Shown here: positions 1 to 5,121 of the stretch, piece after piece
Layout of the letters: every line of letters begins with the position of its first letter
Position numbering within the stretch: the stretch's first letter is position 1
DNA from: Rhodoferax sp.
GTDB taxonomy: Bacteria; Pseudomonadota; Gammaproteobacteria; Burkholderiales; Burkholderiaceae_C
NCBI GenBank assembly: GCA_013791765.1
Contig: VMTC01000021.1
Location: 1 to 48,061 of the forward strand
Length of the DNA: 48,061 nt
Direction of reading: 5' to 3'
Notes under the pieces: generated by a model
What the model was told of the DNA's origin: nothing
The model's input: only the letters and a program-made list of their open reading frames with translations
Databases searched by the model: none
Position numbers and translations under genes: made by a program

Positions 1-1091
1 GTGCGAGCAGCTCGGCCTCCACTCAGATCAGTTCGAGCAGCACGGGCAGCACCAGCGGAAGTCTTTCGCCATCCACGCTGAGCGCGCTACTCGCAGCGCT
101 GGACCCGAAGAGTTCGTCCGCGTCATCTTCGAGCAATCCGCCGGACCCGCTCAAGGATTTATTTTCGCAGATCGATAGCGACGGCGACGGCAAGATCACC
201 AAGGCCGAGTTCGAAGACAAGCTGGGCGCGGGCGGCACCCCGTATGACGTGGTGTTTCCCACCGCCAACGCCGTGCCCGCCATGGCGGCCAGAGGGCTGC
301 TCGGCAAGCTCGACAAAACCAGCCTCAAGAACCTGAGCAACATCGACCCCCGGGTGGACGCCACGCTGCGCGCCTGGGACAAGGACGGCGCCTACAGCCT
401 GCCCTACATGTGGTACACGGTGGGCATCGCCTGGAACCCCAAGCTCACCGCCAAGGCCTACCCCGGTCGCGCCATGGATTCGCTGACCAATGTGTTCGAT
501 CCCGAGGTGGCGCGGCGCTTCCAGTCCTGCGGCGTGGGTGTGGTCGACTCGGCCACCGATGTTGTGCCACTGGCCGCGATGGCGGGCGGGCAAGGCAAGT
601 GGGACGGCAAGAACTCCACGGCAACAGCAGCCAAGGTGCTGGACCGGCTGGCGGGTATCGTCAAGGTGATCCCCACCGACCAGTACATTGACGCGCTGGC
701 CAACGGCAACATCTGCGTCGCCATCGGGTTTTCGGGCGACGCGGTGCAGGCGCAGACCAAGTCACGCGGTGCGGTCGAATACCGGGTTCCGGCCGACGGC
801 GGCCTGCTGGCGATTGACGCCATGGCCGTGCCGGCCAACGCCAAAAACAAGCGCGAGGCACATCTGTTCATCGACTACCTGTTGCGGCCCCAGGTGATTG
901 CCAAAATTTCCAACACAGTGGGTTACGCCAACGCCAACCTCAAGGCCGGCGAGTTCATGAGCGAGAGCATCAAGTCCAACCCGGCGGTGGTGCCCAGCAC
1001 CACAGCACTGAGCCGTTCCGCGCCGATCCCGATCCTGACGGAACAGGACCAGCAGGACATCGCCCGCATCTGGACAAAATTCGCCAAGTAG
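1..1091 (+). CDS. EF-hand / PotD-like solute-binding protein chimera (5' end outside window)
   Basis: The reading frame is open from base 3 to the stop at 1091 and has no start inside the window. Residues encoded at about 3-150 are Ser/Pro-rich. A canonical EF-hand loop (DSDGDGKITKAE) follows at about 174-209, flanked by LKDLFSQI and FEDKL. From about base 234 the frame continues directly into the C-terminal ~280 residues of a spermidine/putrescine-type periplasmic binding protein (PYDVVFPTANAV, SLPYMWYTVGIAWNP, LAIDAMAVPANAKNK, and a C-terminal ARIWTKFAK). The usual first ~75 residues of PotD, including the signal peptide and first strands of lobe 1, are replaced by the EF-hand part. I see no frameshift at the junction. 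It may be a genuine fusion, a recombinant remnant or an assembly join. The next gene starts 26 bp downstream. Polyamine binding is a family inference and may be lost here. Confidence 0.7.
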   Translation, partial: ASSSASTQISSSSTGSTSGSLSPSTLSALLAALDPKSSSASSSSNPPDPLKDLFSQIDSDGDGKITKAEFEDKLGAGGTPYDVVFPTANAVPAMAARGLLGKLDKTSLKNLSNIDPRVDATLRAWDKDGAYSLPYMWYTVGIAWNPKLTAKAYPGRAMDSLTNVFDPEVARRFQSCGVGVVDSATDVVPLAAMAGGQGKWDGKNSTATAAKVLDRLAGIVKVIPTDQYIDALANGNICVAIGFSGDAVQAQTKSRGAVEYRVPADGGLLAIDAMAVPANAKNKREAHLFIDYLLRPQVIAKISNTVGYANANLKAGEFMSESIKSNPAVVPSTTALSRSAPIPILTEQDQQDIARIWTKFAK

Positions 1092-1117
1092 CCCTCTTCA
1101 TGGAGTGACTTCATAGC

Positions 1118-1996
1118 GTGAACCCCAAGCCGTCTTATCTGGGCGCTTTCCTGAAGCACCCGAACAACCGCGTGGCCCTGCTGGCCTGCGCCGTGGCGGC
1201 TATTTTTGCGTCGATTCCGTTTGGCTGGACCGGCCTGGCCCTGGTTGGGGTGATGGGGCTGGGCACCGAGGCGCTGGCGGCGCTGGCCATACCTGGCCTG
1301 CCGTCGTTTCGTGCTTGGGTCGACGGCGAGCAGCACCGCCAGGGCCGGGCAGAACGCCGCCTTTCGCTGCTAAACGAACTCAGCAGCTACGGTGACAACA
1401 ACGCGCTGGCTACCTACCAGCACATGGTCAGCCGCGTCCAGGCCCTGTACCAGACGGCCGGCGACCGCCGCACCACGCTCACCCGTCAGGACGTGGATAA
1501 ACTCGAAGACCTCACGGTGGACTACCTCGGCCTGTGCGTGGTCAACCTCTCACTCAAACAACGCAAAGACCACGCCAGCGACGACCTGGTGGTCAAGCGC
1601 ATCGCCCACATCCAGGCACAGTTGAAAACCCCGGCCCTGCCGGAAGACGAGATGCGCCAACTGCGCAGCGCCCTGGCCGAGTACACGGAGGTCATGAACC
1701 GCTCGCGCCGTCTGGCCGTGCGCCGCAGCACCCTGGAGGCAACGCTGCTGTCCATGCCCGACAAAATGGAAGAGGTCTACCAGCTGGTGATCACCTCGCC
1801 GTACTCATCGGAGATGGGCAGCAAACTGGAAGAGTCGCTGGCACGCCTGCGCATTGCCGAAGAGGTGGCCGCTGAATTTGAAGACCCCGCGTCATATGCC
1901 TTCGGCGCGCCCCCTGTCGCCCAAGCAAGCGATGCACGACCCTCCCGGGCGCAGGCGATGCAGCGCGCGTCGCCCCGGTCCAGCACCTCGCGCTGA
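1118..1996 (+). CDS. Membrane-anchored helical protein of the PspA-AAA-TerB operon
   Basis: I do not recognise the family. This 292-residue protein starts at GTG 1118, with GGAGTG about 10 nt upstream. Residues ~16-62 contain two hydrophobic stretches (VALLACAVAAIFASI and a second rich in Gly/Leu/Ala), likely a hairpin of two membrane helices. The remaining ~230 residues are charged and mostly helical, with heptad-like stretches suggestive of coiled coil (for example around LEDLTVDYL and DEMRQLRSALAEYTEV). The last ~35 residues are Ala/Ser/Arg/Pro-rich and probably disordered. The gene lies 66 bp upstream of the PspA-like gene on the same strand, so it may be the membrane anchor or receptor of that system. 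This role is inferred from position and topology only. Confidence 0.7.
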   Translation: MNPKPSYLGAFLKHPNNRVALLACAVAAIFASIPFGWTGLALVGVMGLGTEALAALAIPGLPSFRAWVDGEQHRQGRAERRLSLLNELSSYGDNNALATYQHMVSRVQALYQTAGDRRTTLTRQDVDKLEDLTVDYLGLCVVNLSLKQRKDHASDDLVVKRIAHIQAQLKTPALPEDEMRQLRSALAEYTEVMNRSRRLAVRRSTLEATLLSMPDKMEEVYQLVITSPYSSEMGSKLEESLARLRIAEEVAAEFEDPASYAFGAPPVAQASDARPSRAQAMQRASPRSSTSR

Positions 1997-2062
1997 CTTG
2001 TCGCCACGCTATTTTTTTATCATCCCGTTTCAACCCCTACCGTATTCAATCAGGAGAACCCC

Positions 2063-2773
2063 ATGGCCAATAACGCAATCTTCGCCCGTCTGTCCAACCT
2101 ATGGACCGGCTTTATTTCCTTGTGGGTGTCCGACATCGAAAAAGAACACCCCGAGATCGCCTACCAGAACGCCATCGGCTCCATGATCGAGAAATACACC
2201 AAACTCAAGGCGGCCACCGGCGCCATCATCGCGCGCCGGCAAGAGATCACGGCCCGCCTGGACACGCACGAGCGCGAGCTCGCCAGCGTCAGCGCCGACC
2301 TTGAAACCGCCCTCGCCACCAACCAGGACGATCTGGCAGTGGTGCTGATTCAGAAGAAAAATGCGCTCGACACGGCCCTGGCCGAGCTGCGCGCCGACGC
2401 CGCGCTCGCCACCACCGATGCCGACAATGCCAAGGATTCGTTGATTCAGGTCAAGTCCGAAATCGACAAGCTCAAGGCCGAAAAGGACCGCATGCTGGCG
2501 CAGATGCACAGCGCGCAGGCGCGGCTCAAGATCCAGGGCCAGTTGGATGGCTTGTCGGTCGATGCCGAGGTGCAGGCGCTCAGTGCAGTGCGCGACCACA
2601 TCAAGAGCCAGGTGGCGCAGGCCAGTATGGGAAGCGAATTGCGCGAATCCGATCTGGATGTGCGCCTGAACAAACTGCGCCAGAGCAGCGGCAGCGTCAC
2701 CGCCAAGGCCCAGCTGGACGCCATGAAGCAGGCCCGCGCCGCCGCCCAGGCTGCCCCGGTCAAAAATCTCTGA
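2063..2773 (+). CDS. PspA/IM30-family (ESCRT-III superfamily) protein
   Basis: This 236-residue, almost entirely alpha-helical protein begins with an amphipathic-looking segment (IFARLSNLWTGFISLWVS). The pattern EIAYQNAIGSMIEKYTKLK follows, then long heptad-rich helices, as in PspA, Vipp1 and YjfJ. Its length is close to PspA (about 220 residues). The start at ATG 2063 has AGGAG 9 nt upstream. PspA/IM30 proteins are peripheral inner-membrane proteins that polymerise into rods or rings on damaged membranes and share the ESCRT-III fold. The gene is followed 13 bp later by an AAA ATPase and then a TerB-like gene. There is no pspF, pspB or pspC nearby, so this is not the classical psp operon. Family assignment is by pattern, without a search. 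Confidence 0.75.
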   Translation: MANNAIFARLSNLWTGFISLWVSDIEKEHPEIAYQNAIGSMIEKYTKLKAATGAIIARRQEITARLDTHERELASVSADLETALATNQDDLAVVLIQKKNALDTALAELRADAALATTDADNAKDSLIQVKSEIDKLKAEKDRMLAQMHSAQARLKIQGQLDGLSVDAEVQALSAVRDHIKSQVAQASMGSELRESDLDVRLNKLRQSSGSVTAKAQLDAMKQARAAAQAAPVKNL

Positions 2774-2786
2774 GCCCGGACCCGGC

Positions 2787-4628
2787 ATGCCCCCCCCCGC
2801 ATCGACGCGCAACGTGCTGCCCCCGTGGGCGGAAACTCTGAGGCAGAAATACCTGGCCGGCGAGGCCTCCACCTTTGTGCTCTACCGCAATGTGTTCGAC
2901 AACTTTCTGGTCGCCGGCAGCTTGCACAACCTGCCGTCCTTCCTTCTTGAGGAGTTGTTCAAAGACACCAAAAAGCATGTATGCGAAGTCAGCCTGGAGC
3001 GCGGCATCCGGGTGCTGCGCGGCAAACCCAAGGGTTCCGTGGCCATCATCGACAACGCGGACGACGGCGGCGACGGCGCTACGCTGCTGCAATCCCTGCA
3101 TGCGCTGGAAGCCCAGATGCGCAGCGAGCAATCTACCGCCGTCATCGTGCCCTATGCCGATGCGCTCTTGCCAGCTGGCGACCCCAGCTTCATGGCGCAC
3201 CAGGACCGCCAGACCTACCTCGCCTTTCACCGCTGGTCGCTCGACAAAGCCCTGACCAGCGGTGACAACATCACGATTCTGATCACCGAATCGCTCAACG
3301 CCATCAACCCCGGCCTGCTGTCCAACCCCAAGGTGGCGGCGATTGAAATCCCCATGCCGGATCTGGCCATGCGGCAAAAGGTCATCGCTTTTTTCGCGCC
3401 CAAACTCAGCGAGCCGCAAGTCACCCTGTTTTCCGAGCGCACCGGCGGCCTGCGCACCGTGCAACTGGCCAGCATCATGGCCAGCTCGGAGGGGCATGGC
3501 CTGAGCGAGCCCCAGCGGCGCGCGCTGATCTTGCAACTGCTGCAAGGCACTGCCGATTGCGAGCAGCGCGCCACCACACTGGCCACCATCACGGCGGGCA
3601 TGACCCCGGCCGAGATCACCAAACTGATCGAACCCGGCAAGACCTTGGCAGTGAATGACCCCAACCAGGAAGTGCTCAAGATCATCCACGCGCGCAAACG
3701 AGAAATGATCGAGAAAGAGTGCGCCGGGCTGATTGAATTCATCGAACCCAAACACGGCCTGTCTTCAGTGGGCGGGCAGGAACACATCAAGCACGAGTTG
3801 CTGGCGATTGCCAAGAACCTAAAAGAGGGTGAAACCACCTTGACGCCGATGGGTCTGCTCGCCGTGGGCCCGATGGGCTCGGGCAAGACCTTTGTCATCA
3901 AGGCCTTTTTGAAGGAAGCCGGTTTGTCCGCCGTGGCATTGAAGAACTTCCGCTCCAAATGGGTCGGCTCCACCGAGGCCAACCTGGAGCGCGTGCTGGC
4001 CACCGTCAAAGCCATGGGACCGATTGCCGTCATCATCGACGAAGGCGACCGCAGCTTCGGCTCCGGCGGGGGCGAAGGCGGTGACGAGGGCACCAGCTCG
4101 CGCGTGATTGCGCGGCTCAAGGAATTCATGTCGGAGCCGGAAAACCGCGGCCAGGTCTTGTTTGTGATGATGACCAACCGCCCCGACAAGCTCGATTCCG
4201 ACATCAAACGCCCCGGCCGCCTGGACCGCAAGATTCCCTTCTTCTACTGCGAGTCGGCACCCGAGCGGGTCCAGGTGCTGCAGGCGGTGTTGTCGCGCTA
4301 CGGCGAGACCTGCGTGGCGAGCGCCGAAGAACTGCTCACCCTGTGCGACACCTTGGGCGGCTATTCCAACGCCGACCTGGAGGCCCTGGCATTGATGGCA
4401 GTCGAGCTGGCCCGCAACCAGGCCAGTCCCCTGAATGCGCAGGTGCTCACCGCTGCAGCCGCCGACTTCATGCCGCCGCAGGAGAGCGACATGATCGAGT
4501 TCATGGAGTTGCTTGCGGTGTCGGAAACCTCGCGCCGCTCCATGCTGCCCAAGCGCTACCGCGACATGGCGGTGGCCGACATTCAGAGCAATTTGTTAGA
4601 TGCCAAACGCCGCGCCTTGGCGCGCTAG
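2787..4628 (+). CDS. Tandem AAA-type ATPase (degenerate N-domain, active C-domain)
   Basis: This 613-residue protein is a likely partner of the PspA-like protein. Residues ~1-270 resemble an AAA fold without a Walker A: an acidic AIIDNADD stretch, AVIVPYADALL in a Walker-B-like position, and ITILITESLNAI in a sensor-1-like position. Residues ~325-545 form a classical AAA module: Walker A GPMGSGKT (361-368), Walker B VIIDEGD (D418, E419), sensor-1 MMTNRPDKLD, and arginine-finger region KRPGRLDRK (R475, R478, R481). The lid helices lie around GYSNADLEAL. The layout recalls Ycf46-like ATPases and, functionally, Vps4. The start ATG 2787 is 13 bp after the PspA-like stop and is followed at once by nine C residues. 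It probably remodels or disassembles the PspA-like polymer, which is an inference from linkage. Confidence 0.8.
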   Translation: MPPPASTRNVLPPWAETLRQKYLAGEASTFVLYRNVFDNFLVAGSLHNLPSFLLEELFKDTKKHVCEVSLERGIRVLRGKPKGSVAIIDNADDGGDGATLLQSLHALEAQMRSEQSTAVIVPYADALLPAGDPSFMAHQDRQTYLAFHRWSLDKALTSGDNITILITESLNAINPGLLSNPKVAAIEIPMPDLAMRQKVIAFFAPKLSEPQVTLFSERTGGLRTVQLASIMASSEGHGLSEPQRRALILQLLQGTADCEQRATTLATITAGMTPAEITKLIEPGKTLAVNDPNQEVLKIIHARKREMIEKECAGLIEFIEPKHGLSSVGGQEHIKHELLAIAKNLKEGETTLTPMGLLAVGPMGSGKTFVIKAFLKEAGLSAVALKNFRSKWVGSTEANLERVLATVKAMGPIAVIIDEGDRSFGSGGGEGGDEGTSSRVIARLKEFMSEPENRGQVLFVMMTNRPDKLDSDIKRPGRLDRKIPFFYCESAPERVQVLQAVLSRYGETCVASAEELLTLCDTLGGYSNADLEALALMAVELARNQASPLNAQVLTAAAADFMPPQESDMIEFMELLAVSETSRRSMLPKRYRDMAVADIQSNLLDAKRRALAR

Positions 4629-4662
4629 GCCCCCACTTTTCCGATTCACAAAGGAGCACCCC

Positions 4663-5121
4663 ATGAACGCCATGCAAGACCAGAACCTCAGCCCCGCGCA
4701 GGTCACCCAGCTCACCAAAGCCATGCTTTCGGTCGCGCTGGTGGACGGCATCCACCCCGCCGAAGCGGCGCTGATTGGCCAGTTTTATGAGAGCTCGCGC
4801 AGTGCCGACATGCCCACCACCTCCAGCGTGATGGCCAGCCCCGAGGCGCAGCCATTTGACGCCGCCGAACTGGTCGGCAGCTCTGCCACCTTTGCCGACA
4901 CCGTGGTGCTGATGTGCCTGATGGCCGGCCATGCCGACGGCCAGTTGAGCCCCGCCGAGCGCGACCATGTCCAGGCCATGGCCACCACCCTGGGCGTCGA
5001 TGCAACACGTTTTGAGGCGCATCTGGCGCAGGTGCGCGACGAACTGGTGGGCGCCATCTCGCACCTGCCAGATGCCGGTTCGGTGGCGGCGGTGGTGAAG
5101 GAACTGTCGGCGGCTGATTAG
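4663..5121 (+). CDS. TerB-like acidic helical protein
   Basis: This is a 152-residue acidic helical protein. I chose ATG 4663 because AAGGAG sits 7 nt upstream; an earlier in-frame ATG at 4600 lies inside the AAA gene. It carries two copies of the TerB-type acidic motif: ALVDGIHPAEAALI near residue 25 and GHADGQLSPAERDHV near residue 88. Each fits the D-G-x-x-x-x-x-E pattern that TerB domains use to bind metal. TerB family proteins are linked to tellurite resistance and membrane-associated stress complexes. Position as last gene of the operon, 34 bp after the AAA gene, suggests a regulatory or metal-sensing partner. I see no signal peptide or membrane helix. A terminator hairpin follows at 5158. 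Confidence 0.7.
   Translation: MNAMQDQNLSPAQVTQLTKAMLSVALVDGIHPAEAALIGQFYESSRSADMPTTSSVMASPEAQPFDAAELVGSSATFADTVVLMCLMAGHADGQLSPAERDHVQAMATTLGVDATRFEAHLAQVRDELVGAISHLPDAGSVAAVVKELSAAD

Follow-up and report, generated by a model that had tools for sequence, protein, structure and literature searches.

A conserved PspA–AAA operon of Rhodoferax and its relatives, linked to three make-ups of a putative solute- and wall-binding receptor

Introduction

Whether polymers of bacterial ESCRT-III superfamily proteins are worked on by a AAA motor of their own, as ESCRT-III is by Vps4, is the question raised by an operon at the start of a Rhodoferax contig (VMTC01000021.1, assembly GCA_013791765.1), the whole of which, 48,061 nucleotides, is here the window. 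Passages from several published sources are pertinent. In a review, bacteria are described as without a clear Vps4 homologue (PMC7615534), and in the part of Liu et al. 2021 that deals with it a Vps4-like motor for bacterial PspA/Vipp1, be it PspF or another ATPase, is called unclear (PMC8281802; compare passages in PMC11746142). The relevant section of Ravi et al. 2024 places PspA beside a two-AAA protein with an inactive N-terminal copy, draws the ESCRT-III/Vps4 analogy, and has both a longer operon, with an ABC transporter and a PBPB-OmpA protein, and a bare PspA/AAA pair (PMC11237479). The core PspA-AAA pairing is, then, already in print.

The original prediction for this locus was of a separate ESCRT-III-fold/AAA/TerB module, perhaps for membrane repair, stress or defence, and it was staked on a PspA_IM30 match and on recurrence of the four-gene order in other genomes. 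Both were found, and the conserved unit stands; the pairing is not new (Ravi et al. 2024), and the defence role is given up below.

Gene layout, conservation and distribution

Positions 3-5121 of the window, which is a whole contig, carry five co-directional genes on the plus strand. They encode the C-terminal part of a solute-binding protein (SBP_bac_8; 3..1091; PF13416, E 3.1e-27), with its N-terminus beyond the contig edge; protein A, a presumed inner-membrane anchor with a helical domain and, N-terminally, two hydrophobic helices (1118..1996, GTG start); a PspA/IM30-family protein of the ESCRT-III superfamily, B (2063..2773; PF04012, E 3.1e-15); a tandem AAA protein, C (2787..4628; PF00004, E 7.4e-25, residues 358-485); and a TerB-like protein, D (4663..5121; PF05099, E 4.9e-07, residues 81-119). 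The frame of the last opens at 4600, the inner ATG at 4663 having been picked as start by alignment with relatives. Successive intergenic gaps are 26, 66, 13 and 34 bp. Four of these genes, in one orientation and with the last three 13 and 34 bp apart, had been predicted and are borne out by the list of open reading frames, but the solute-binding gene upstream had been overlooked and the operon begins earlier than was thought. Relatives have another gene of about 230 aa, gene 6, 5′ of the solute-binding gene. A promoter and terminator scan of the operon gave nothing beyond shuffled controls.

The order A-PspA-AAA-TerB recurs in 8/8 relatives (five of them on contigs that, by their length, recur among the named loci as L030, L045, L075, L076 and L085), with an extra ORF between A and PspA in L015. 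For broader sampling, a scan of named genomes returned at least 193 relatives, of which the best 80 were kept, so that all counts out of 80 below refer to the nearest relatives. These best 80 of 193 include Rhodoferax, Hydrogenophaga, Accumulibacter, Propionivibrio, Chitinimonas, Lysobacterales, Panacagrimonas, Acidovorax and Acidobacteriota, together with one Desulfovibrionaceae bin and one Myxococcota bin.

The operon system is rare. With the AAA protein as query (E<=1e-40), matches came from 6 genomes among 300 in the order and from 4 among 200 in the family, counting the own genome. At phylum level an AAA profile (E<=1e-60) matched in 4 of 398 genomes, i.e. the own genome, one with a full-length protein and PspA and TerB adjacent, and two with only the C-half. 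The two C-half-only proteins (L120 and L121, frames of 569 and 552 aa, E about 1e-66) have no PspA in their 1.5-kb flanks, and possibly form a sister family. Origin from a mobile element or phage was considered and rejected: no AAA relative was confirmed in viral contigs by a pattern-based scan or found in a plasmid collection at E<=1e-40, and no PspA relative was found in a phage collection at E<=1e-5.

The PspA protein

The 2063-2773 product matches PF04012 (PspA_IM30) over its whole length (residues 6-224) at 56.8 bits against a cut-off of 33.9, and has a profile match to solved PspA/Vipp1 structures in the PDB; the PspA/IM30 pattern that had been read from its helices is thereby confirmed. 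The score against the PspA equivalog model TIGR02977, 36.7, falls below the cut-off of 242.95. Linkage to the AAA gene is close: PspA is on the same strand within 9 kb in 78 of the best 80 of 193 loci, and in 74 of those 80 its ORF starts at most 1.7 kb upstream of the AAA ORF. Four Acidobacteriota loci, where PspA starts about 5 kb upstream, and the Myxococcota locus L094, where the AAA gene is without PspA within 9 kb, are cases from which it may be that the two proteins do not touch.

The own genome has a single PspA_IM30 match at E<=0.001. Across the same family, PspA is over the cut-off in 15 of 150 genomes, own included, and three of the other 14 have this operon within the stretch examined, which with the own genome makes 4 of 15. 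Lower-scoring PspA-family proteins outside this operon also occur in the same family (L106, L107, L109, L112 and L113), and a tblastn search of their stretches with the four window proteins was negative at E<=1e-3.

A weak ATPase activity of PspA is also to be considered, R44, E126 and E179 of sll0617 being reported as necessary for it in a passage of PMC11746142. Among operon PspAs, R44 is K in 78/79, E126 is K or Q in 79/79 and E179 is V, I or A in 79/79. Loss of these residues was tried, and dropped, as an argument for an outside motor: of 11 other Burkholderiales PspAs tried, five gave an alignment, and among these R44 is conserved in one, E126 in one and E179 in none; because Burkholderiales PspAs beyond the operon thus mostly differ as well, the differences carry no weight for such a motor.

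The AAA protein

For alignment and tree, 75 AAA proteins were used, those of 74 of the 80 named loci plus that of the window, with L068, L070 and L071 (<550 residues) and L043, L063 and L073 (short stretches) left out. The C-half is a classical AAA module in every one of the 75, with Walker A (G361/G366/K367/T368), Walker B (D418/E419), sensor 1 (N464) and arginine fingers (R475, R478), and with an aromatic pore loop, KWVG, whose W392 and G394 are each present in 75/75. This loop is similar to those of Vps4 and p97 D2. In the N-half, by contrast, no P-loop is present at the expected residues 30-40 in the 75 aligned sequences; N35 and D38 occupy its place in 75/75. Two ATPase-competent domains, as in a Cdc48/p97-like tandem, are accordingly not found and, judged by motifs, only the C-terminal half is a plausible ATPase. 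The classical module with arginine fingers that had been expected is borne out in the C-half, and the expectation of a tandem ATPase is corrected for the N-half.

An AlphaFold2 (AF2) model (pLDDT 82.3, pTM 0.72) aligns over about 600 columns with Rix7, p97/Cdc48, NVL and AFG2, query TM values being 0.36-0.57 among the 50 matches listed. Since no MIT domain was matched (neither MIT nor the Vps4 C-terminal domain gave a Pfam match at E<=1), the protein is not Vps4 proper.

Protein A and the TerB-like protein

The product of 1118-1996 has hydropathy peaks at residues 19-37 and 40-58, and its AF2 model (pLDDT 82.7) consists of helices only, in agreement with the two membrane helices and helical stalk predicted for it. 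No Pfam family scores over its cut-off and no PDB fold match reaches E<=0.001, the best being BAR-type and other coiled coils at E>=0.12. By profile search A is matched in 72 of the best 80 of 193 loci, weakly in L095 and L099 (E about 5e-06). A second ESCRT-III protein was one candidate identity, and gained no support from an hhalign comparison with operon PspAs (probability 1%) or from the PDB search at E<=0.001, long helical proteins being hard for profile and fold tests alike. Protein A is best read as a membrane anchor, which is how we infer its role. A separate observation is a conserved gene family of about 290 aa upstream of PspA in 13 of the best 80 of 193 loci (e.g. L015:8934-9827, L083, L080 and L091); the L015 member lies between A and PspA and has no Pfam match.

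The TerB assignment, predicted from a doubled acidic motif, is sustained by a PF05099 score of 30.5 bits against a cut-off of 24.4, matched at residues 81-119 only, and by two D-G-x4/5-E motifs (residues 28-34 and 92-99). TerB is present in 63 of the best 80 of 193 loci, seven of the 17 misses having <450 bp after the AAA gene; where there is enough downstream sequence it is missing in 10 of 73. Loci in which it was not found are three of Acidovorax and those of Desulfovibrionaceae, Myxococcota and Acidobacteriota, with L095 (Acidobacteriota) ending too early.

Receptor genes and the importer

The product of 3..1091 is presumably periplasmic. Its counterpart is present in 29 of the best 80 of 193 loci, with 80-94% identity over 277 shared residues, and in relatives checked with Pfam (L018, L021 and L033) the gene starts with PG_binding_1. 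The extreme contig edge of the window is peculiar in that 1-213 encodes a poly-Ser stretch and an EF-hand (PF13202) without counterpart in the five relatives compared, homology to which begins at 214-237. A DNA search of the own assembly matches this stretch at this place only; it may be a true insertion, or the contig end may have been wrongly joined during assembly. For receptors of the window's type a PotF match, under its cut-off, makes polyamines the first candidate ligands.

That a solute- and wall-binding protein is linked to the operon speaks for a role in the envelope or in transport. The gene of this protein sits between gene 6 and A and, among the best 80 of 193 loci, has three make-ups: NMT1-like plus OmpA in 39 loci, PG_binding_1 plus SBP_bac_8, the window's type, in 29, and SBP_bac_3 plus LysM in four. 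Eleven receptors were Pfam-scanned (four OmpA, three PG_binding plus the window fragment, and three LysM), the others being typed by similarity. Receptors were not found in 8 of the best 80, of which L045, L050 and L097 extend <1.5 kb beyond the AAA ORF on its 5′ side. In the OmpA type, receptor and A are separated by a permease and an ABC ATPase. Within 9 kb, permease is present in 39/39 OmpA-type, 0/29 PG_binding-type and 0/4 LysM-type loci of the best 80 of 193, and the ABC ATPase too is present in all 39 of the first. An ABC-ATPase match occurs within 9 kb in two PG_binding-type loci, L021 and L024, that of L021 preceding the first operon gene. What is new relative to the literature searched is the existence of three unrelated receptor make-ups, each with a solute-binding and a wall-binding domain, a permease having been found with the OmpA type alone. 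The window belongs to the permease-less, sensor-swapped lineage with TerB, its own upstream part being beyond the contig edge.

Gene 6 (about 230 aa) is present in 69 of the best 80 of 193 loci and has no Pfam family over its cut-off. Two departures from the usual gene order are seen: PspA is 5′ of the receptor in the loci of Acidobacteriota, and in the Desulfovibrionaceae locus L078 the AAA gene comes before gene 6, receptor and importer. Four loci (L034, L044, L083 and L087) have PspA-AAA with neither receptor nor A within 9 kb, three of them with TerB; from this, receptor and A may be dispensable, or the missing genes may be located elsewhere in those genomes.

An N-terminal membrane segment, MxxLTPLxKGL, accompanies all three receptor types. 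Its strict pattern is found on the operon strand upstream of the AAA gene in 53 of the best 80 of 193 loci, and on the opposite strand in 0/80. By type the 53 divide into PG_binding 26/29, OmpA 23/39, LysM 4/4 and receptor-less 0/8, again of the best 80 of 193, and 13 of 15 OmpA-type genes without a strict match have a near match by eye. In the window's lineage the segment, or one like it, is carried by a small protein of its own in all five loci that were looked at (L018, L020, L021, L022 and L038). In L018 this protein (3493-3966) lies between gene 6 and receptor and combines an OmpA-receptor-like membrane segment with a sub-cut-off Sel1 match; it is perhaps a remnant of the receptor swap.

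The AAA tree, a quick maximum-likelihood tree of the 75 proteins, unites the LysM type in a clade of its own (SH-aLRT 100) and the PG_binding type in another (SH-aLRT 98, including two receptor-less loci), both placed among OmpA-type rows, and two changes of receptor type suffice on it when receptor-less loci are omitted. A single clade of the permease-less types is rejected (p-AU 0.020, in an AU test set after tree inspection). Nearest to the window is a Rhodoferax ferrireducens record, at 94% identity. Since we chose the Acidobacteriota/Myxococcota rows for the root and the tree has branches flagged as long, the direction of the receptor swap is one that we infer.

A possible envelope machine and its alternatives

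The best explanation, to which we would give somewhat less than an even chance, is a self-contained envelope machine in which a wall-tethered receptor and a membrane anchor would steer a PspA polymer that is turned over by the AAA protein. The periplasmic receptor would use one of its domains to bind a small solute and the other to bind peptidoglycan, and A, as a two-helix inner-membrane protein, would anchor the cytosolic assembly. PspA would polymerise on the membrane, and the Cdc48-like tandem, its N-half dead and its C-half active, would pull PspA subunits from the polymer via its aromatic pore loop, doing for PspA what Vps4 does for ESCRT-III. TerB, absent in some lineages, may have an accessory part as adaptor or regulator. 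Where the operon has its commonest form, the receptor probably supplies an ABC importer as well; because no permease was found in the window's lineage and a different solute- and wall-binding protein takes the receptor's place, the receptor there probably acts as a sensor. The fuller proposition, that a PspA polymer and a dedicated unfoldase are run by a swappable peptidoglycan-tethered receptor for a small molecule, which around an unchanging cytosolic PspA-AAA core has been replaced at least two times by unrelated solute-binding and unrelated wall-binding domains, the importer being discarded so that the solute is sensed jointly with the wall and not transported, is doubtful, though a real possibility.

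Another reading, unlikely in our judgement, makes PspA a regulator that holds the AAA protein inactive until membrane stress, with the AAA protein then acting on A, the importer or TerB. PspF is an AAA protein of the transcription-activator type. The operon protein, unlike PspF, is of the Cdc48 unfoldase type and its aromatic pore loop, with W392 invariant, points to substrate threading. The strong linkage of AAA, A and PspA suits a regulatory PspA, linkage alone saying nothing on the direction of action, and PspA repression of PspF in E. coli is given as established in the relevant passages of PMC11746142 and PMC8281802. A transport-centred scheme, with an importer whose binding protein is wall-tethered and with PspA, AAA and TerB maintaining or recycling the transporter complex, would account for the permease and ABC ATPase in 39/39 OmpA-type loci of the best 80 of 193 and accords with the link to solute transport proposed in the section concerned of Ravi et al. 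2024 (PMC11237479), yet in the window's lineage and the LysM type the other operon genes are retained and permease is present in 0/33 within 9 kb, and we regard this scheme as improbable. The anti-phage or stress defence island of the original prediction is very improbable and is abandoned, its sporadic distribution and a PADLOC IetA match of the AAA domain (E 1.3e-09) being set against the linked solute-binding and permease genes, the finding of no relatives in the viral-contig, plasmid (AAA) and phage (PspA) searches, and PADLOC results in which A is unmatched and the matches of PspA and TerB are only partial (best E 0.0011 and 0.002).

If the envelope machine is the right reading, the existence of three exchangeable receptors suggests that different envelope signals can be connected to a machine of this kind. 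From a practical perspective the operon is a concrete AAA/PspA pair in named strains, e.g. of Hydrogenophaga, Chitinimonas, Acidovorax and Tahibacter, and the question of a Vps4-like motor thereby becomes one for direct in vitro test.

Comparison with known systems

With Ter (tellurite) systems the operon has a TerB-family protein in common, but TerB is here accessory and absent from part of the loci. Among the papers listed by literature searches, none could be recognised as describing TerB together with PspA and this AAA protein. PspA is likewise shared with pspFABC, and differences there are several: the operon genome has no PspC (PF04024) match at E<=0.001, where the same control was positive in 7/14 genomes and as had been predicted of a module without PspC; the AAA protein is not of the PspF type; and the TIGR02977 score is below its cut-off.

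The PspA/two-AAA operons in the pertinent section of Ravi et al. (PMC11237479) correspond to the window in PspA and in a two-AAA protein with a dead N-half. Their longer form, with permease, ABC ATPase and PBPB-OmpA protein, does not, permease being present in 0/29 loci of the window's lineage among the best 80 of 193. Section 18 of that paper names no permease-less operon with another wall-binding receptor, and a word search of its main text gave no mention of TerB, LysM or 'tellur'. 'Snf7 homologs with a TM segment' are mentioned in the same source; protein A for its part gave no profile match to PspA. In the literature searched we came upon no form of the operon that lacks the importer and has its wall-binding receptor exchanged.

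Compared with the ESCRT-III/Vps4 systems of archaea and eukaryotes, the AAA protein of the operon differs in being a Cdc48-like tandem without an MIT match in Pfam, but the essential arrangement is common to both, i.e. an ESCRT-III-superfamily protein adjoining a classical AAA protein with an aromatic pore loop.
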